Assembly (NCBI RefSeq): GCF_020740795.1
Contig: NC_067284.1
Location: 103,159,440-103,223,439, forward strand
DNA from: Apus apus
Taxonomy: Eukaryota; Chordata; Aves; Apodiformes; Apodidae
Length of the DNA stretch: 64,000 bases
Reading direction: 5' to 3'
Position numbers and translations under genes: made by a program. Below the pieces are notes generated by a model. The model was not told the origin of the DNA. It saw nothing but the letters and a program-made list of their open reading frames with translations, and made no database searches. Within the stretch, counting starts at the first letter, position 1; every line of letters starts with the position of its first letter. This document shows, one piece after another, positions 9,586-54,583 of this stretch.

Positions 9586-9602
9586 AACAGTAAAAAACTC
9601 AG

Positions 9603-9608
9603 TTTATT
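9603..9608 (-). terminator. polyadenylation signal of the minus-strand LDLRAP1-like gene
   Basis: TTTATT on the plus strand reads AATAAA on the minus strand (as AAATAAA). It is the first good signal downstream of the minus-strand exons and would set the transcript end near 9585. Confidence 0.55.
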
Positions 9609-9697
9609 TCCTTACAAAGGCAGGGCTTTCCTTTAAAAAACAGCACATTTCACTCATGAGAGGGTGTGGGGGCTGCACTGCAGGAGTGAGGCCTTCC

Positions 9698-10054
9698 TCA
9701 CTCCTCCAGGCACAGAGCTATTGCTCCCTGAGGGTCACGCGTGCTGAGCAAGTCCTCCACCATCTCCAGGAGGCAGCTCAGCCTCGGCTGGTCCCCAGCT
9801 GCCAGCATAAGGAGCAAGGTGGAAGAAACAAGCGAGGTCAGGCTGGGTGCAGTCCTGAGCACACTGGCTGCATCTGCAGGCTCAGAGCACCAGGATGGCT
9901 CTGGGGTGGCTCCAAGGGCGCGGGCAGAGCGAGAAGCACTGTCCCCTTGAGCGGGGAGCGGCTGCGGCTTGAGGCGGTTCATGCAGGCGGAGAGCAGGAC
10001 AAGGAGTGGGTGTCGCAGCCTGTGCACTGCGTGGCAACGGTGCCAGCAGACCCC
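9698..10054 (-). other. candidate 3'-terminal coding exon of the minus-strand gene (unconfirmed)
   Basis: On the minus strand a strong pyrimidine tract and AG (acceptor at 10056-10055) open a 118-codon frame that ends in TGA at 9700-9698, only about 90 bp before the AATAAA at 9608. Local CpG density is higher than in the flanks. The peptide has helical-looking leucine-rich stretches (for example SCLLEMVEDLLSTRD) but matches no family I recognise and lacks the AP-2-binding motif of LDLRAP1. It could be a divergent C-terminal exon, the end of a separate small gene, or chance open frame inside a 3' UTR. Confidence 0.25.
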
Positions 10055-11439
10055 CTGCCAGGTGGGCAGTGAGAGGGCAAGGGCAGGCACTGTCTGGCCC
10101 GAGTGCAGGCACAGGGTGAACCCTGAGTGGCTGGTCCACGGCTGTGGAGATTCGGCTTAGCCCAGGGGAGTCTTGGAGCCAGGAGCTCTGGGGCCAGCTG
10201 TGGGGAGGTCTCCAACCCCTCTAAGCCCCTTCCAGCTGTCTGGGGGTTGCCCCAAGCGGTAGCACAGGAGCTGGGCAGTAGCAGAGCTTGCTCTGGGCAC
10301 AAGATGTGTTGACTCTGAAAAGCAAGAGGGAGCAAGACCCAGTCCATGAGGCATGCGGTTGGGAACCCAGCACAGCCTGGGAGAGGAAGCAGACCTTCCT
10401 AGGCCAGCCATTAGGCCCCCTCCTCCTGCAGAGAACATGTAGCACTGAAGGAACCTACCTGCTGGGCCGTGGGCTCCCCTCTCCAGCTCCTCCATGCTGC
10501 TTTGTAAGAGAACAGAGCACCCATCATCACACCCCACACAAGGCTCAAACCACACAGTGTGCTCAGGATGCTGATAGCACAGGCACAGCACATGGCACAG
10601 CAGTTCCAGGCACTCGGAGTGCAGGTGGCCCCAATCTGCTTGCTACCAAACCCTCTCCCCAGATCAGCCTATCTTGAGGCTGCACGGCTACTTCTCCTTC
10701 CCATCAGGAGTCCCCACATACAAAGAGCTGCCATTTCATATGGTCACACACACAGCTCCAGTCTGTGCAAGCACTGGTTCCTGGCTGGCTCCAGTTCAGA
10801 CCATGCTCAGCCCTGTGGCACTGACAGTCCCCAGCCAGGCACCAACTACCAGGCACGTGGAGAACAGCCAAGATGAAGCAGACCTCTCACACCCGCCACC
10901 ACAGGCACTTTTCTGCAAAGACCTACAGATTACTCCACTGCCACACTGGTACCATCAGCTCCTCCCAAGCACAGCACAGACACCCACAAGCTCAGCTCCA
11001 AGCCCTCATCCACACAGAAGTCATCCTGACCAGGCCTCCACCCTGGCTCAAACCCCAGGGATATCAGTGGAAGGAGAAGGCCAGCTCTGGGTCCCACCTA
11101 AGAAGCATGTCTGGATAGGCTGGCCTCTACAAAGAGTGGCAGAAACAGAACAAGGAACATCTCTGGGTACATCCCGAGGGCCAGCATCTGTACCCCCTGC
11201 TTCTCTGCAAAAGCTGAACTTCAAAATCTGCCCTTCCCCAGCTCAGCTCCTTGCTCACTTGACCCTAAACTCACAGAAGCAGAGAAAGCAGCAGGATGCT
11301 CCCCCTTACTCCCATGCAGATCTCCTCCATGCTCCCACCATGCCCATAGCCCCAGCAGCTCCCCTTCCACGAGGCACAGAGAAGGAAACATGACAGGGCT
11401 CACCAGAGAGACCCCTAAACACAAGCAGCAGCTTACCAC

Positions 11440-11493
11440 CTACCCAGACAAGGTTTCTCCGATGTTATCATCTTCCTCCTCCTCTTCCTCCTC
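11440..11493 (-). other. candidate acidic exon of the LDLRAP1-like gene (tentative)
   Basis: A minus-strand acceptor (TTTGTTTCTTTGCCAG) opens a phase-0 frame of seven Glu and two Asp, then NIGETLSG and TAG. It is phase-compatible with the candidate exon 12268-12389. If used as the last coding exon, a 3' UTR of about 1.85 kb would run to the AATAAA at 9603-9608. GTAGGT and GTAAGC donor-like sites overlap or follow the stop, so the exon might instead splice onward. Confidence 0.35.
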
Positions 11494-12267
11494 CTGGCAA
11501 AGAAACAAAACAAACCCACCATGACACCTTGCTACCTGGTCAGGTCTCTGCCAGGAGCACGGCTGGGCTGCCCAGAGCCTGTTCTGGAGCAGCAGGGCAG
11601 TCCCCAGGCCCTTCACAAGACACAGTCATCCACTAGGCATGGCACAGATGGAGGGTGCCTACAGGCTGCAGGGGAAATATGGCACCTGCAGTGCTGAGCT
11701 GCTGAAATCCTCAGGGCTCAGGCAAACAGCCACACAAGGGGAGAGGCAGATCACTGCTCTTCTCACATCCACCCCAGCCAGCAGAGCACCAAACACAGGC
11801 TGTGAGCAGGGAAAAAGCTGAGACAGCTGCTGCACACAGCATGCCTTTGCCCAGAGGCAAGAGTGGGGTCAGCACACCTTGCAGTTGGAGGCCAGGCAGA
11901 GAGCAGCTCAGAGCCAGCTGTATCCAGGTGTGACCCCCAGCACTGCCAGGCTGGGCCAGCACTGGGAATGTGAGAACCAAGGACCAAGTGTCCAGAGGCT
12001 CCTGGGCAGGAACACAGCAAGACTGGCAACACTGGGTCTGGACATGCAGCAGTTGTAGTGCAGATGGGCAGGGCTGAGCCTTAGCCCAGGCTGGCAAGAT
12101 GGGTCCTGAAGGGCCAGGAGGAGGGAGTTGCGTAAGGGTGACCCTTCTCCTGCCCTGCTGTGGGACAGCCCTGGGCATGGGCCAGACTTGCACATACTGT
12201 ACCCCAAACTGGTGTCTGAAGGGAGGGCTTCCCGGGGGGGCTGGCTCACTTGGTCTGCCGGGCTCAC

Positions 12268-12389
12268 TGCTCTCCAAGACACATGAAGGGTGAAGGGGCT
12301 GTTCCTGCCTAGAGCCTGGGACAGGGCAAAAGCAGCAGAGTTAGTGCCTGCAACCTGGAGAAGGTCCAGCAGGGGATGGACAGGCAGGA
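12268..12389 (-). other. candidate exon 6 of the LDLRAP1-like gene with clathrin-box-like LLDLL (tentative)
   Basis: A minus-strand acceptor (CTGTCCCTTGTCCACAG) and donor (GCA|GTGAGC) bound 122 bp. It accepts the phase-1 end of exon 5 and leaves phase 0. It encodes VLPVHPLLDLLQVAG followed by SAAFALSQALGR. LLDLL fits the clathrin-box consensus, the role played by LLDLE in LDLRAP1, but the surrounding residues do not align with LDLRAP1. The same frame stays open beyond both splice sites, which weakens the case. Confidence 0.35.
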
Positions 12390-12748
12390 CTGTGGACAAG
12401 GGACAGCCCCCTGCTGTGCTCGGGGGCGGATGCACACAAGGGTGGGAGATGACTGCTCCGGGCAGGTACCACAGGGCCTGGAGCTGCACTACAGCTCAGC
12501 AATGCAGAAGAGTTCAGCAGCAATAGCAGGGACTCCCCCATCCCCCATCCCAAACAGAGATGGAGCAGGTCCCCCAGCTGGGCAGTAGCAGAGAGCACAA
12601 CAGCAGGGACAATGCGCTCCCTGCTTGGTGTGTTGCACCAGCCAGGCAGCGAGCCACCTCTCCTGCACACAGCCCAAGACAGAGTCCCACACTGCAGACC
12701 CTGATCCCAGGGCTAGGCAGAGGAACATGTTTGAGAAATTCCTCCTAC

Positions 12749-15700
12749 CTGCATGTGCTGCTTCCCAGAGATCCAGTGCCATCTGGAAGGCCTGGGCCAC
12801 GGTCAGAGTCACAGCCTGGGCCTGTGTACAAGAAATAAGGGGAATGTCTGCTTCCATCTGGACCCTTAAGCAAAGACAATCCCATTGCTGTGTGGTCTGA
12901 GGGCCCCTATCCTCCTTCACTTCCTCTCCCTGCAGAGCACACACTGGGAAGAACAAGGGCTCAGTACTTGTCTGTCTGCCCACACAGGCCAGCCACCCCT
13001 AAGAGGAGATCCCAGAGGAACTGGGACAATGGAACCTCCTCTTGCTCACCACCTTCCTCTGCAGTGTGTGAGCATACATGTGCTCCCTGGCTCCATTTCC
13101 AGCTGAGGTTCAGAGGTGAGGGCCTTCTCTCTCTGAAGGGGGAGAAGGAAGGCCCTTGCTCCCACCCTTACCTGATGGAGCCAAGAGCAGAAGGGAAATG
13201 CTTACAATCTTTTTCTTGGGTGAGAGGAAGGCATGGCACTCCAGTGCCCCACTCTGCTGGCTCTGGGCAACGTAAGCAAAGACTTTGTTCTGCAGCTTGT
13301 CTGTTGTGCAGTAGGAGATCCTGCAGGTAGAGAGGAGCTGCTCAGGGCAATAAGGGACCCCAGCACAGATCTTCTGCTGTGCTCCCACCACACCAACAAG
13401 CCATGCCAACAGCCTCAGGCTTTCATCTGCCCCAGATGATCTGGTGGCCCAACCCCACAGCAAGGGCCAGAGGCACCTACAGCTGATAAGAGACTACTGC
13501 ATCCACAGGCATTCCCTCTTGCATTGCCCTAGTGTGCTCCTCAGCCCTCTGCTGCCCACTTTAACCCAATGTAGGAACCCAAACACTAGACAAAAGGAGA
13601 ACAGAAGGGTGGGTGGTTGCCTCTGAGGACACAAGTGGAGGCCAGGCAGCAGGATGGTCTGCCTTGGCACATCAGCTCTGGTGCTAAGACTCAAATTTTG
13701 CACCAAGGAGATGTCCTGTCTCTCCTTCCCATCTAGTCACCAGCCTGCAGCCATGCTCCCCTCATACCCAGCACCCACAAACACCCAACCCAGCCAAAGC
13801 ACAGCTGGCAGCAGTAAAAACACCCCACATCAGCTCTCACATCAACTGCCTTTAGCCAGCCTGACTAGCCTGCAGTCCTTGGCACCCTCATCCCAGTGCA
13901 GCCAGGTTGGTCCTGTGGGTCTTGTGTCAGTGGAAAAAGGCAGACATGCACTCCTGCCCCAACTGTGGGGCTTTCGAACCATCAGCCTCAACATCATGCT
14001 TGAATGCCAGCAGAGACAACCAGGGCTCAGCGAAAAGACAGATGGGCTGACCCAGAACTCAAGAACACCCAGGTCCCTCCCTGCGTTCAGCCCCAGGCAG
14101 CACTGCAGGGCACAGCAGGGAGCGGGCACAGACCTCAGGGAGCCAAAGGAAGACCTAAGCTGGAAAGTACCACTGACAGAAGGCCCAGCCCTCCCTGGCT
14201 TCTGAAGATCCCATCAGCCTCCAGCTGGCTTCTTGGGAGTACCGAGCCGCCATGCCCACCTGTAAATGGAGATGTTCTCAACCATCTCCTTTGTGTCCGC
14301 ATCCTGCAGCGAGATTCCCCTCGGAGACACCGTCAGAATCACTTTCTGGAACTTGCGAGCTCCTACCCGTGCCTGGCAGTAGGGAGACCAGACACCTCTG
14401 CAAATCTGGCACGGATCTTCATCCTGCCTTGCTGACAGGAATTCCCCCAGACTCTGTACAGAGTGCCACCTACTTGGGCCCTTGCTGCAAAGGACCCTTA
14501 TGTGGAGATGGGAAAGCAGAGCCTGGAGATCAGGTGCACGTTCCACAGAACACCCCTGGAATCCACTCACCTGACTGCCACCCTCCTCTCCCTGCTGTGA
14601 CAGGCACAGCTCTGCTCCTAGTCGTGGTGCAGGAGCAGGCAGTGGTCCTGCAGGAAGGCAGCTGCCCCCACAGCACACAGGCTGAGAGACCTGCCAACCC
14701 CCTGCATGCCACCCTCCTTTTGTGAACAGCACGGTCCCTGGGTGCAGGGCTGGGACATGGACACTTCCAGAGGCCTGGGCTCCCTCTCCACCCTAGCACA
14801 GCAAAGCCCTGGGGCCAGCTCTCACCGTGGCCACAATCCTGCGGATGGCAGCAGCCGCCATGTCTTCTCCTTTGGGTTTCTCTACCAGTGTCATCCCTAG
14901 ATACTTGAGTGTGAAGCACATCCCCTCAAGCAGCGGCTCCTGCATATCAGCCCAGCTCTCAGGAAGCTCTGCAAAGACAAAACCCCGTGGCAGCAAAACC
15001 CACGTGCTGCTCCCCCAGCAGAGCCACCCCACCTTGCTGCAGCCTCACTGCTCCCAGTAATAGCTAGCCTCCCTGCTAGCTGCACACAGCAGGGCAGTCT
15101 CCGGGCTCTGTGACATTCTTGGAAGAGGAACAGAACCAGAGGACGGTTCACTCTCAAAGCTTTTAGTCCTCCATCCCTGGAGCTACAGGCTCTGTCAGCA
15201 CAGACTGTAAGCTCCTGCAGATCTGCAGCTCCTCAGATGCTGCAGTGTTCAGTGCTATCTGCCTTGTGTTTCCAGGTCTCATCTGTTTCCCTAAAAGCAG
15301 GATGTGCTCTGTACTGCATTCATCTCACCCACCTAAGCCGCTGCCACTCCTCAGGAACAGCAGCATTTGCTCTCACACTCGGTCAGATCAGAACCTGCAA
15401 GCTGTCCCAGTATAGCCAAAGCCAAACCCTCTGGTAGCTGTCATTTGCAGCAGCAGGCTGCCAGGGAAGGGGCAGCTTGTCCAGCACTCACGATCCAAGC
15501 TGGAGTGACTGGGAAGCAACTGCACCACAAAGATTCTGGGTTAAGGAAGAGATCAGACTGGCATTTCGGGGATGCAAACCAGCTGCCAGGAGAACACACT
15601 GTATGGATGAGCTCCAGTGCACAGAGGGAGGAGAATCATTGGTTGGACTCAATGATCTTAAGGGTCTTTTCCAACCTAAATGATTCTGAGAGCTCCCACA

Positions 15701-17365
15701 AGCATTACTTTGCAGGTCACAGAATTAAAGGGGCACTGGCTTCTGTTTCCTGTACCCTCTCTTTTCAAACCCCATTGCTGCAGTCAAGAAAAAGAAAAGA
15801 AAAAAAAAACCCAAACAAAAAATGGGCAGAGTTCCTGCTCACTCAAGGAAGATTCCCTAGGGATAGTTCTCAGCATCTCCAGCTTCCTTCAGAAACCAGT
15901 GTGTCTCACCAGCTTGTTCTGTCACACAGCAAATGTGCTGGCAGAAGGAGCCCTTGCTCTACAGTCAGTCCCAACACCGGTGCCACTGGCAGAGAACACA
16001 AAACAAGCACTGTAAAGTTTAAGGAGAACTGAAGCAGGTGTTAGCGCACCTTTGCTTTCCTCAAATATAAGGAAAAGGTTTTTCACCCAGAGGCTGGTCA
16101 AGCAGTGGAACAAGCTCCCCAGGGAAGTGGTCACAGCACCAAGCCTGCAGTTCAAGTGCCCTACACAGGGACAGAAGTTGGACTCCATGATCCTGATGGG
16201 TCCCTTCTAACTCAGCATATTCTATAATTTTATGAAATCCCAAAGGGCACAAGGATGGTAACAGGAGATATGCAGAAAGGTTAAGACACAGGGAGTCACA
16301 GTCTCTCTCTTCTCAGGGATTCATCCAACAGAGGAGGGAAGGAACAAGAACTCAGAGTGACATGCTCTCCTGCAAACACCATGGTTGTACACTTCCCTGG
16401 TAATTGCCTAGGTAGCTACTGGTCACACTAAGCTATTACTTTTTAGGGTTATTTTTCACCTCTTCCCTGGGATTAGCTCCCTGAACATTACTGGCACACT
16501 TGCAGATACCTGGAATAACCTGAACCCACAGGGAAATTCGGGAGACCTTACTTGCACAGCATATCCTTGCACAAACCACAATGCCAGGGAACCCACCGAG
16601 TGCAGTGCAGGGTACAGCTCCCCAGGGTACAGCGCCTTCTCCCTCCGAACTGTGTGCACAGCCCACACGTGCAGGGGCTGCCAGAGTGAGCTCTGCTGCC
16701 CCAATGAAGCCTTTGGGCGGCCGTGACTGAGAGAGCCCCGGCACAGCCCTGCTCCTGAGCCCGGGGGTCACCCCGGGAGCTGGCTGTGCCACAGACAGCA
16801 CGGCAGTCAGCCCGCGCTGAGGCCTGACACGCTTGCTGCACGCATGTCCATACCAGCAGAGAACCAGGCACAGAAGGCAGGGCAGCGCCCGACACCCCCC
16901 GGCACCGCCGCCCCGGGCCCCTCGCCCTCCCGCACGGGCGGCCTCAATTCAAAAGTGGGTCAAGAGGCCGGCACGCAGGGGACCGAGGGGCCCAGGGCAG
17001 CAGCCCCAAGCGCTGCCGGCTGCCCCAGCCCGCAGCCCCACGCCCTGCCCCCAGGGACCTCCAAAACCTGCCCCGCAGCCCCCGCGCTGCCCCGCAGCGC
17101 CGCCAGCCCGCCTCAGCCTGCTCCCGGATCCCGCACCGCACCCCGCAGCGCGGCCAGCCCACCGCGGCCCCGCACCGCTCCGCACCGCGGCCAGCGGCAC
17201 GTCCCGGGCCCGGCCGGCCCCAGGTGCGGGCTCCCCGCCCGGCCCGCCGCCCGCTCCCCGGCCCCGCCGCCCGCACTCACTGCGCCGCCGGCGGAGCCCC
17301 AGGCTGTGCCGGGCGAGGCGCGGGCTCCGCAGCACGGCGCGCCCCGCCGCCCGCAGCGCCTCCAT
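12749..17365 (-). CDS. LDLRAP1 (ARH)-like PTB-domain clathrin adaptor, five N-terminal exons
   Basis: Minus-strand exons are 17365-17281, 14968-14826, 14372-14260, 13320-13206 and 12821-12749, with matching phases and GT-AG sites. They encode about 176 residues: a basic N-terminus [21 protein letters not shown], then a phosphotyrosine-binding domain with family landmarks [71 protein letters not shown] and [12 protein letters not shown]. In LDLRAP1 this domain binds FxNPxY tails of LDL-receptor family proteins, while the C-terminal half binds clathrin and AP-2. Human LDLRAP1 is on chromosome 1p36, so a copy beside IFT172 is best read as a paralogue; I could not compare it with the bird LDLRAP1 itself. 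The clathrin- and AP-2-binding half of LDLRAP1 is not recognisable downstream, so the C-terminus is either diverged or missed. The gene starts head to head with IFT172. Confidence 0.88.
15640..15690 (+). repeat. CR1 LINE 3'-end fragment
   Basis: GGTTGGACTCAATGATCTTAAGGGTCTTTTCCAACCTAAATGATTCTG-like end of CR1. It lies in intron 1 of the LDLRAP1-like gene, antisense to it. Confidence 0.85.
15782..15824 (+). repeat. A-rich low-complexity tract
   Basis: An adenine-rich run with interspersed G and C. It lies in intron 1 of the minus-strand gene, about 90 bp after the CR1 fragment. Confidence 0.7.
16060..16240 (+). repeat. CR1 LINE fragment
   Basis: Has the CR1 landmarks TTCACCCAGAGGCTGGTCAAGCAGTGGAACAAGC-like, CTCCCCAGGGAAGTGG, GTTGGACTCCATGATCC and a degenerate TATTCTATAATTTTATG tail. 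Confidence 0.85.
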
Positions 17366-17430
17366 GCCCGAGCCGAGCCGAGCCGGTACCGGGGCGGGGG
17401 ACGGTCCGTCCGCCGCGGGGCCCGGCGCGC

Positions 17431-17438
17431 TCACGTCA
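17431..17438 (-). promoter_or_regulatory. CRE-like site (TGACGTGA)
   Basis: TCACGTCA on the plus strand, TGACGTGA on the minus strand, is one mismatch from the CREB/ATF palindrome TGACGTCA. It lies 66 bp upstream of the LDLRAP1-like start codon and 20 bp from the X-box. Function is inferred from the motif and position only. Confidence 0.45.
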
Positions 17439-17458
17439 GCAACGGCGGAGGCGCCGGG

Positions 17459-17472
17459 GTTGCCGGGGCAAC
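17459..17472. promoter_or_regulatory. RFX X-box in the divergent promoter
   Basis: GTTGCCGGGGCAAC has both half-sites of the RFX consensus GTTGCC-N2-GGCAAC intact as an inverted repeat. RFX factors bind X-boxes in promoters of ciliary genes, including IFT subunits. It lies 78 bp before the IFT172 ATG and 94 bp before the LDLRAP1-like ATG, so it could serve both genes. Confidence 0.8.
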
Positions 17473-17549
17473 GGGGGGCGGAGCCCGGCGCGGCGGCGAG
17501 GCCTGTGGCGGCCCCGGGCCCGGGGGTGCCGCGCTCGGCGTTCGGCGCG

Positions 17550-50800
<33,251 letters not shown>

Positions 50801-51758: not shown

Positions 51759-53672
51759 CTAGGTGCAAGTCTCAGCCAATACCCCAAGGAGTTGCTGCAT
51801 CTCACGTGGTGGCCTCTCCTTCACTGTATCTGTCCCAGCCAGCTAAAAAGAGGGGGAAAAAAAGGGTGGAGGGTCACAGGGATATGAGAAGGGCTGGGCT
51901 AGGTTTAGGAGTGGGGACTTGGGGGTGGATAAGGGCAGCATTTGCTCAGGACGTAATAGGCTTGGGCATCAGAGGGATGAGAGTCCCTCTGCAACTACCC
52001 AAGATGAAGGGGTGCCAGTCTGTCACCAAGGATGGCTAAAAGGTTCAAATTTGACATTCACCCTGCACCCCCAGCCCCTTGCTGCTCAGCCTGCTTGTAT
52101 GGGAACAAGGGCCCAGCAGCACCCAGCACTGCCAGAATGCAGCAAAAGGGCAAGCAGTGGTGGGGCAGAGGCAGGGAGACCCAACAGGCCAATGGGACAT
52201 ACCTGCTCTTTGCTGTATCTGTGTGCACAGGGCCCAATGCCCCGGAAGATCAGAGCCACCAAAAAGCACCTGCCAGACAGCACAGCTTCCGCAGCCACCA
52301 GCACCATGGAGGGGAACCAGAGCGCCAGGGCTGTGTCCTGCAGAGCAGAGGGCTAGAGGTCCCACTGCACCCAGCCTGCACCAGCAGAGGGGCTGGGTAG
52401 GCGGTGGGGGGGGAGAAAGAAAGGGAACGCAGTGAGAGGAGAAGAGGAAGAGTGAGCAGAGAGAGGGAAAGAAGGAAAATAAAGACGAGAGGAAGCAGAG
52501 ACAGAAGGAGGACGGGTGGGAGGGGGTGGCCCTGCAGACTCACATAGATGCGCGTGGTGTTGAAGGGACAATCGTTGGTGGCAATGGCGGCCCGGGCGTC
52601 GCTGGGCAGCGCGGGGCTGTGGCAGCCCTGCAGCAGGTGCCTGCCCCGGCTGTGCACGGTCAGCGCGATGGCCAGGGCCAGGCCCACGCTGCAGGCTGCG
52701 GACAGCAGGCAGCTCAGCAGGGACACGCTCAGCAGGGTCCAGTGCTGCAGGCAGCGAGAGCACGAGAGCAGAGCTGGCCAGAGCCCGGGGACACGGCAGG
52801 GCTGGCACTGCCGCTCTGCAGGGAGCAGGGGTGCTGGGAGCCCCGCGGACATTCGCATCCCGCGAGCACATGCAGCCCCCTGCCCCTGCTAGCACGGCTC
52901 AGCCCTGCATGAGGCTTCCGCACCTTTTGCATCCTTTGCCCCCGCCCCCCCACCCCGGGACCCCCAAGCCCCCGCCCAGCCCCCTCCCACAGGCTCCTGC
53001 CCCGGAGAGCCCCGGCACTGCCTCAGCCCCACCGAGACCCCAGCCCCGCAGCAGCTCTGCCCCACGCACGGCCCACCCTGAGCCCGCACGGGGATGCGTG
53101 ACCCCGGCTGCAGCTTCACCCACCAACCGAAGCGTCTCTGCCCCGAGCCGATGCCCACGGCCCCGCCGCTGCCGCCCCTCACGGCGCTGCCGACGGGCCC
53201 GGGCCGGGGCAGCCGGCGGCATCCAGAGCCCGCCAGCCAGCGAGGCGGAAGGAGCCGCCGGGGCAAGGTCCGAGGGAGCGGCGGGGGGCTGGGCCGCGCC
53301 GGTGCCCCCGGCCCGCACTCACCAGGGCGACCCGGGACAGGTTGTGCGACACCAGGATGGCTACGATGCCCACGGCGATGCTCTGCGGGGAAAAGATCCG
53401 CGTCGGGGGCCGGGCCGCCAAGCCCCCTCTCCCGCCGCCCGCCCCGGCCCCGCCGCGCTCACCAGCAGCCCGGCGCTCACCGACACCACGTTGGCCGCCG
53501 CGTACTCGGGGGTGACGGCGCGGCCGGCGCCGGCCACATGCCGCAGGACGGAGCCGTGCACGATGGCGCCCAGCGCCAGGCTGCCGTGCCCCAGCACGAT
53601 CAGCCCCAGCCCCGAGCGCATCAGCCGCTGCGGGTCCGTCAGCGCCGTCGGGCCCCGCCGCCCCACGGCCAT
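51759..53672 (-). CDS. KRTCAP3: KRTCAP3, keratinocyte-associated protein 3
   Basis: Minus-strand exons are 53672-53463, 53382-53323, 52744-52544, 52337-52203 and 51842-51759 (stop TAG), 229 aa against about 240 in human. Every exon boundary is phase 0. Four hydrophobic segments are visible, at about residues 20-43, 61-88, 92-122 and 158-185. Family landmarks are [32 protein letters not shown], a loop with CH and DCPF.TTRIY, and DTALALW.PS. A sequon NTT lies in the second loop. KRTCAP3 is a poorly characterised four-pass epithelial membrane protein. The start MAVGRRG was chosen for its good Kozak context (GCGGCCATGG); an in-frame ATG 27 codons upstream falls next to the NRBP1 poly(A) signal and is unlikely to be in the mRNA. 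The last exon ([12 protein letters not shown]...) matches human only loosely. Confidence 0.93.
52396..52512 (+). repeat. purine-rich tract in a KRTCAP3 intron
   Basis: A G/A-dominated low-complexity run (GGGGGGGAGAAAGAAAGGG to GACAGAAGGAGGACGGG). On the KRTCAP3 sense strand it is a long pyrimidine tract in intron 3. Confidence 0.75.
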
Positions 53673-53766
53673 GGCCGCTGCCGCCCCGCCCGCCCCCGGC
53701 ACCGCCCCGGCTCCCTCCCCCGCCCCCGCCCCGGAAAGAGGCAGCACTCGCATATGTACAAAACAG
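53673..53766 (-). promoter_or_regulatory. KRTCAP3 proximal promoter, abutting the NRBP1 3' end
   Basis: The 94 bp between the KRTCAP3 ATG and the NRBP1 AATAAA contain several GC boxes (GGGGCGGGGGCGGGG, GGGCGGGGCGG in sense). No TATA box is seen. The CpG-rich block continues through KRTCAP3 exon 1 and back into the NRBP1 3' UTR. Confidence 0.55.
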
Positions 53767-53772
53767 TTTATT
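53767..53772 (-). terminator. NRBP1 polyadenylation signal
   Basis: TTTATT on plus, AATAAA on minus, 0.8 kb after the NRBP1 stop codon. It is followed in sense by CTGTTTTGT-like U/GU-rich sequence. Confidence 0.8.
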
Positions 53773-54583
53773 AAAAATAGGAAATGATAGAAATGAGATG
53801 CAGGAGCGGAGCCGCGGGCTCAGCCCCGCCGAACACCCCGGGCCGGGGAGGGGAAGCGGGGAGCAGGTCCCGGCACTGCTGCCACCCCCGCTCTCCCCCA
53901 CCCCGGCCCGGGGCACCGTGCCTGGGGCTACCCGCAGCGGCCCACAGGCCCCGTGTGGGCACAGCCGCAGCCCCAGGGCACGGCGCAGCGCGGGGCGGCC
54001 GCGGGGAACTAGTAAACAAGGAGCAGCCCCGGAGCAGAGCGGGCAGCAAAGCGCCAGGTGGGGGCTGCAGGACCCCGGCCCCCCCCGGCCGGGAGGGAGG
54101 GAAGTGACTGGTGCCAGAGGCAGCTGCAGAGTTGGGGGCAGAGAGGGGGCAGGGCTTAGGGGCTCCCCCTGCTTACCTTTAAATTAAAAAAAAACAAAAA
54201 CAAAAAACAACCCCCCAAAAAATAATAATAAAAAAAAAGAAAAAACAAAACATTTCTGTGCTGTGCAAAAGACACTTTGTACAATTCAAACAGAACAAAC
54301 TCCATGCACATGAATGGGGCTACAGAACTCCCCAAGCCAGGACCCGGCTTCCCGGCACCACCTGGCAAAATCCCAACAAAAACAGGGCTGGAAATAATAC
54401 TGATGCGCAAAGTCCCCTTTAATAGGCGGGCAGGGAGGATTGTCGCTGAGCCCAGCCACGGCACATGCAGGACAAGCTTCCAAGCACTGCAGCTGGGGTC
54501 TCGCTGATGCCCTACAGTGATGGACAGACACAGAAGGGGTCACAGGCAACAAGGCCGCGCTGGCCGCCCGGGAGCCGGGAGTG
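53773..54583 (-). other. NRBP1: NRBP1 3' UTR
   Basis: Sequence between the NRBP1 stop and its poly(A) signal. Its distal part is CpG-rich and its middle carries a very U-rich block in the mRNA sense (see 54181-54252). No other gene is seen. Confidence 0.8.
54181..54252 (+). repeat. A-rich low-complexity block in NRBP1 3' UTR
   Basis: About 70 bp, almost all A with short C and AAT interruptions; in NRBP1 mRNA it is a U-rich block with UUAUUAUU. It could bind U-rich or AU-rich-element proteins, but that is inference. Confidence 0.75.

Follow-up and report, generated by a model that had tools for sequence, protein, structure and literature searches.

A perfect RFX X-box between the head-to-head start codons of IFT172 and an ARH-like PTB gene in Apus apus

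The region upstream of IFT172 in Apus apus raises the question of which gene its RFX site controls, and whether the neighbor that shares the region belongs to the ciliary program. In the 64-kb stretch of DNA analyzed here (the window), the start codon of IFT172 lies at 17550 on the plus strand, that of an ARH-like gene lies at 17365 on the minus strand, and a perfect palindromic X-box stands between them. A preliminary description had taken this layout for an RFX- and FOXJ1-driven ciliary promoter that might also serve a clathrin-type adaptor. Our analysis supports an RFX X-box in the promoter of IFT172 and the sharing of this promoter, head to head, with an ARH-like PTB gene; it supports neither FOXJ1 as a direct partner nor the clathrin-type adaptor.

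The gap between the head-to-head start codons is 184 bp long, and the intact inverted repeat GTTGCCGGGGCAAC occupies positions 17459-17472, exactly as first described. The distances of 78 and 94 bp originally given to the two genes are coordinate differences; 77 bp lie between the motif and the IFT172 ATG, and hence the start of a ciliary gene, and 93 bp between the motif and the ARH-like start codon. The elements of the gap are as follows.

17366..17549, no strand: gap between the divergent start codons, 184 bp, in a CpG island
17459..17472, no strand: RFX X-box GTTGCC-GG-GGCAAC, full inverted repeat with a 2-bp spacer, fitting GTNRCC(0-3N)RGYAAC
17431..17438, no strand: CRE-type site TCACGTCA (TGACGTGA on the minus strand), closer to the ARH-like gene
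17438..17443, minus strand: half X-box GTTGCT, with one base in common with the CRE-type site

The 500 bp around the X-box have a GC content of 0.86 and a CpG observed/expected ratio (o/e) of 0.94. Simple patterns find two GC boxes in the gap and no TATA, CCAAT, Ets, NRF1 or forkhead motif, and the CRE-type site TCACGTCA lies 65 bp from the ARH-like ATG. MHC class II promoters carry an arrangement of X1 and X2 boxes, which the CRE-type site together with the half X-box (17431-17443, GTTGCTGACGTGA on the minus strand) loosely resembles. Bases 49-174 of the gap have a 72% match near 16.230 Mb on contig C9 (E 5.4e-8), perhaps mere GC-rich similarity. Elsewhere in the window, positions 52501-54000 form another GC-rich stretch (GC 0.71-0.78), probably a CpG-island promoter.

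As a motif, GTTGCCGGGGCAAC agrees with the RFX consensus GTNRCC(0-3N)RGYAAC given in a passage of PMC5752003. The pattern GTTGCCNNGGCAAC is matched without mismatch at a single site in the 64-kb window, 17459-17472; when up to three mismatches are allowed, 48 sites appear in the window against a mean of 41 by chance, which is no clear excess. The looser consensus also fits three other window positions, 38799 (+), 43917 (+) and 25641 (-).

The plus-strand gene is IFT172, as had been proposed: exons 1-3 and the first part of exon 4, joined as a query, hit IFT172 of PDB 8bd7, with query residues 1-111 aligned (E 2e-31).

17550..17588, plus strand: IFT172 coding exon 1, PDB 8bd7 match
17745..17888, plus strand: IFT172 exon 2, PDB 8bd7 match
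17981..18093, plus strand: IFT172 exon 3, PDB 8bd7 match

Control of this gene by RFX factors has been published. Passages of PMC3889689 present ift172 as a direct Rfx2 target in Xenopus, said to agree with flies, worms and mice. In passages of PMC5752003, the X-box region of mouse Ift172 shows RFX4 ChIP enrichment and reporter trans-activation, with a weaker reporter response than that of Dync2li1; Ift172 mRNA is unchanged in the Rfx4 knockout mouse, for which the authors suggest compensation. A putative NRF2 site is reported for IFT172 in part of PMC6761261, and passages of PMC2873420 do no more than name IFT172 among the genes examined. The swift element resembles the vertebrate IFT172 X-box (RFX2 in Xenopus, RFX4 in mouse) in the RFX consensus and in the gene whose promoter it occupies. 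It differs from the frog and mouse sites, known here by report rather than by sequence or position, in that it also lies 93 bp from a divergent ARH-like ATG. Since RFX factors are known to act directly on IFT172, the motif is best read as the X-box of swift IFT172, an expected element. A direct part for FOXJ1 in this promoter, by contrast, is not supported: positions 17366-17549 contain no forkhead motif (RYAAAYA or TGTTT), and the passages of PMC3889689 report ift172 as a target of Rfx2 only, not of FoxJ1.

From the sequence and the published control, we put at about 85% the probability that this is a core-promoter X-box of IFT172, next to a neighbor that probably starts in the same island, likely depends partly on general elements and may be an RFX bystander. 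RFX dimers of the RFX1-4 type would bind the inverted repeat in the CpG-island promoter, and their binding would raise IFT172 transcription in ciliated cells. The unchanged Ift172 mRNA in the Rfx4 knockout mouse and the weaker reporter response tell against this. With the transcription start sites of both genes as predicted from this layout, the ARH-like gene on the opposite strand would probably be transcribed from the same island. General island elements, namely the GC boxes and the CRE-type site, likely drive it at least in part, and we infer the independence of this gene; it may also receive some RFX-dependent activity as a bystander, for which a ciliary job would not be needed. The locus resembles CpG-island bidirectional promoters in its head-to-head start codons 184 bp apart, its GC richness and its lack of a TATA pattern, and we found no feature that differs from them. 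It would add a bird-type promoter to the RFX-type IFT promoters.

What the neighbor encodes bears on whether the X-box could matter to it. The minus-strand gene has an ARH-type PTB domain, in keeping with the original description: residues 42-173 of its protein match the ARH PTB domain 3so6 without a gap (E 5.6e-57), and the domain is unbroken, with 87 of 132 residues identical. We take the 3so6 chain to be rat ARH.

17281..17365, minus strand: ARH-like coding exon 1
14826..14968, minus strand: ARH-like exon 2, PTB domain
14260..14372, minus strand: ARH-like exon 3, PTB domain
13206..13320, minus strand: ARH-like exon 4, PTB domain
12749..12821, minus strand: ARH-like exon 5, end of PTB domain
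10157..12315, minus strand: tentative ARH-like 3' exons 12203-12315, 11444-11493, 10459-10499 and 10157-10314, from splice signals and open frame only

All introns between 17365 and 12749 are of the GT...AG type. An earlier exon model, in which the frame was broken, was replaced by this one with one more exon. The frame stays open past the tentative stop to 9698 (9698-10157, minus strand), with a polyadenylation signal just beyond.

This gene is a paralogue of LDLRAP1. We searched the genome (1.10 Gb, 110 contigs), in which the window lies on contig C4, with the PTB region of the ARH-like protein and obtained 10 matches: five window exons, three exons of a second gene on contig C22 (7.6 Mb), and two weak single matches of 30% identity on contigs C21 and C9. 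Over the PTB core the C22 gene has 115 of 132 residues identical to 3so6 and the window gene 87 of 132, and the two genes share 109 of 176 residues (62%); therefore the C22 gene is LDLRAP1 and the window gene its paralogue. The closest match to mammalian LDLRAP1 in this genome is thus not the window gene, and we rejected it as the LDLRAP1 orthologue, which is on C22. The two are alike in the ARH-type PTB domain, in a similar protein start (MDALKSAGRALLRSP in LDLRAP1) and in matching exon borders as judged from tblastn pieces, whereas the paralogue differs from C22 LDLRAP1, which has LLDLE, in carrying no detected clathrin box. All three minus-strand frames of 9600-17365 lack a clathrin-box pattern in a scan that an intron-split motif or one before 9600 would escape, and the same scan recovered LLDLE from the C22 LDLRAP1 control. 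This speaks against the term clathrin-type adaptor used in the preliminary description. Patterns for AP-2 appendage motifs gave no match in the window gene; the helix patterns are uninformative because they missed the C22 LDLRAP1 control as well.

The two ARH-type promoters, set side by side, lend some support to our main reading. In 1.5 kb of the C22 LDLRAP1 promoter there is no loose-consensus X-box and one GTTGCC half-site ~523 bp up, and a CRE, TGACGTCA, lies 111 bp above the ATG. A CRE common to both ARH-type promoters is suggestive, no more, and may be chance, because one of 13 other X-box islands also has a CRE within 250 bp.

A single X-box could drive both genes and bring the ARH-like PTB protein into the ciliary program, where it might be a bystander or contribute modestly to trafficking. 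We consider this possible but rather unlikely. The 184-bp gap and the symmetric, near-central motif speak for it, as does co-regulation, a prominent feature of medaka divergent pairs according to passages of PMC11676430. Against this, divergent neighbors are common at 8-13% of genes, with 13% in medaka and ~8-9.4% in mammals in the same passages, and the LDLRAP1 promoter on C22 is without an X-box. Given the published RFX control and these frequencies, an X-box at IFT172 is expected and its nearness to a divergent neighbor unremarkable. Classical ARH, for its part, interacts with centrosomal proteins, and centrosomes change when it is lost, according to passages of the review PMC6912373; a link between ARH and the centrosome also appears in part of PMC13198606, and the original study cited is Lehtonen 2008. 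However, these two papers contain no word starting with cilia or cilium, and literature naming LDLRAP1 with cilia or FOXJ1 gives, by titles and abstract starts, no ciliary ARH role. As for precedents, we found no literature on bidirectional promoters of divergent ciliary genes; a supplement legend of PMC5245798 mentions a probable bidirectional promoter at Cep290. Co-expression of the ARH-like neighbor with the ciliary program is possible on sequence grounds, and the locus is a clean natural experiment for asking if a single X-box activates an unrelated gene on the opposite strand.

The surrounding gene order touches on the same point. A fibronectin type III domain of FNDC4/FNDC5 type lies at ~1640-2500 on the plus strand, where two joined exon pieces match FNDC5, PDB 4lsd (E 3.8e-29). 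The order is then FNDC4/5-like (+), ARH-like (-) and IFT172 (+), and further genes may lie between the first two. In human, FNDC4 and IFT172 are presumably direct neighbors on one strand, with FNDC4 as the upstream gene and no ARH gene separating them; in that case the mammalian X-box serves IFT172 without an ARH partner. To our knowledge, the second ARH gene seems to be missing in mammals.

A bolder reading is that this second ARH gene, once under the IFT172 X-box, joined the ciliary program as a PTB protein that lacks a clathrin box and ferries membrane cargo of NPxY type toward or away from the ciliary base. We think this very unlikely, with the published centrosome links of ARH (passages of PMC6912373 and PMC13198606) leaving it a small chance. 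We found no literature on 'LDLRAP1-like'; that on ldlrap1l/1a/1b has, by titles and abstract starts, nothing on cilia, and the ldlrap1 passages in PMC8278012 concern endocytosis. Should the ARH paralogue prove to be cilium-enriched, which is conjecture, it would hint at an adaptor role overlooked by work in mammals.

That the ARH-like protein serves birds as a dedicated clathrin/AP-2 adaptor for ciliary membrane traffic, as the preliminary description suggested, is highly improbable. Its unbroken PTB domain, gap-free against 3so6, would suit such a function, whereas a paralogue in which no clathrin box is detectable, when the control LDLRAP1 yields one, would not. Proximity to IFT172 was the sole link to cilia that we found, so the case for any ciliary role of this gene is a weak one, made from position.

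Finally, the idea that the X-box is functionless, a palindrome thrown up by chance in GC-rich DNA, can practically be dismissed and was rejected on the gap shuffles: dinucleotide-preserving shuffling of the 184-bp gap did not produce the exact motif in 20,000 trials, and shuffling of the 1.1-kb island gave one match in 5,000. The promoter that the site occupies also belongs to a published RFX target (passages of PMC5752003 and PMC3889689), although the genomic copy number and a cut-off-dependent island excess would suit chance. The looser GTNRCC-N0-3-RGYAAC appeared in 34 of the 20,000 gap shuffles.

Genome-wide, perfect palindromic X-boxes number 216 in 1.10 Gb, compared to 254 sites for a single control palindrome of like composition, TGTGCCNNGGCACA, and therefore the raw count gives no enrichment. 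Fifty X-box places listed of the 216 (contigs C1 and C3) were compared with the first 20 of 50 listed control places (C1), a place being called CpG-island-like at a GC content of at least 0.55 and an o/e of at least 0.6 in 500 bp. By this definition 15 of the 50 listed X-box places are island-like and none of the 20 listed control places (p 0.004); with close pairs counted once, the X-box figure is 13 of 48 (p 0.007). Raising the GC cut-off to 0.7 at an o/e of 0.6 leaves 13 X-box places of the 50 listed and no control place of the 20 (p 0.014). Lowering the o/e cut-off removes the difference, with 15 of 50 against 4 of 20 at 0.5 (p 0.55) and 15 of 50 against 9 of 20 at 0.4 (p 0.27).

The spacer creates a CpG in 14 of the 15 island X-box sites listed. 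A CpG made in this way survives mainly in unmethylated islands, and CpG decay outside islands therefore explains part of any excess. Being both cut-off-dependent and confounded, the island excess of X-boxes is weak, and we give it little weight. The GG/CC spacer seen in the window recurs at 3 of the 15 island sites and at none of the 35 other X-box sites listed. On contig C1, two CpG islands each contain a pair of perfect palindromic X-boxes, whose starts lie 33 bp apart in the island near 2.239 Mb and 51 bp apart in that near 7.651 Mb.
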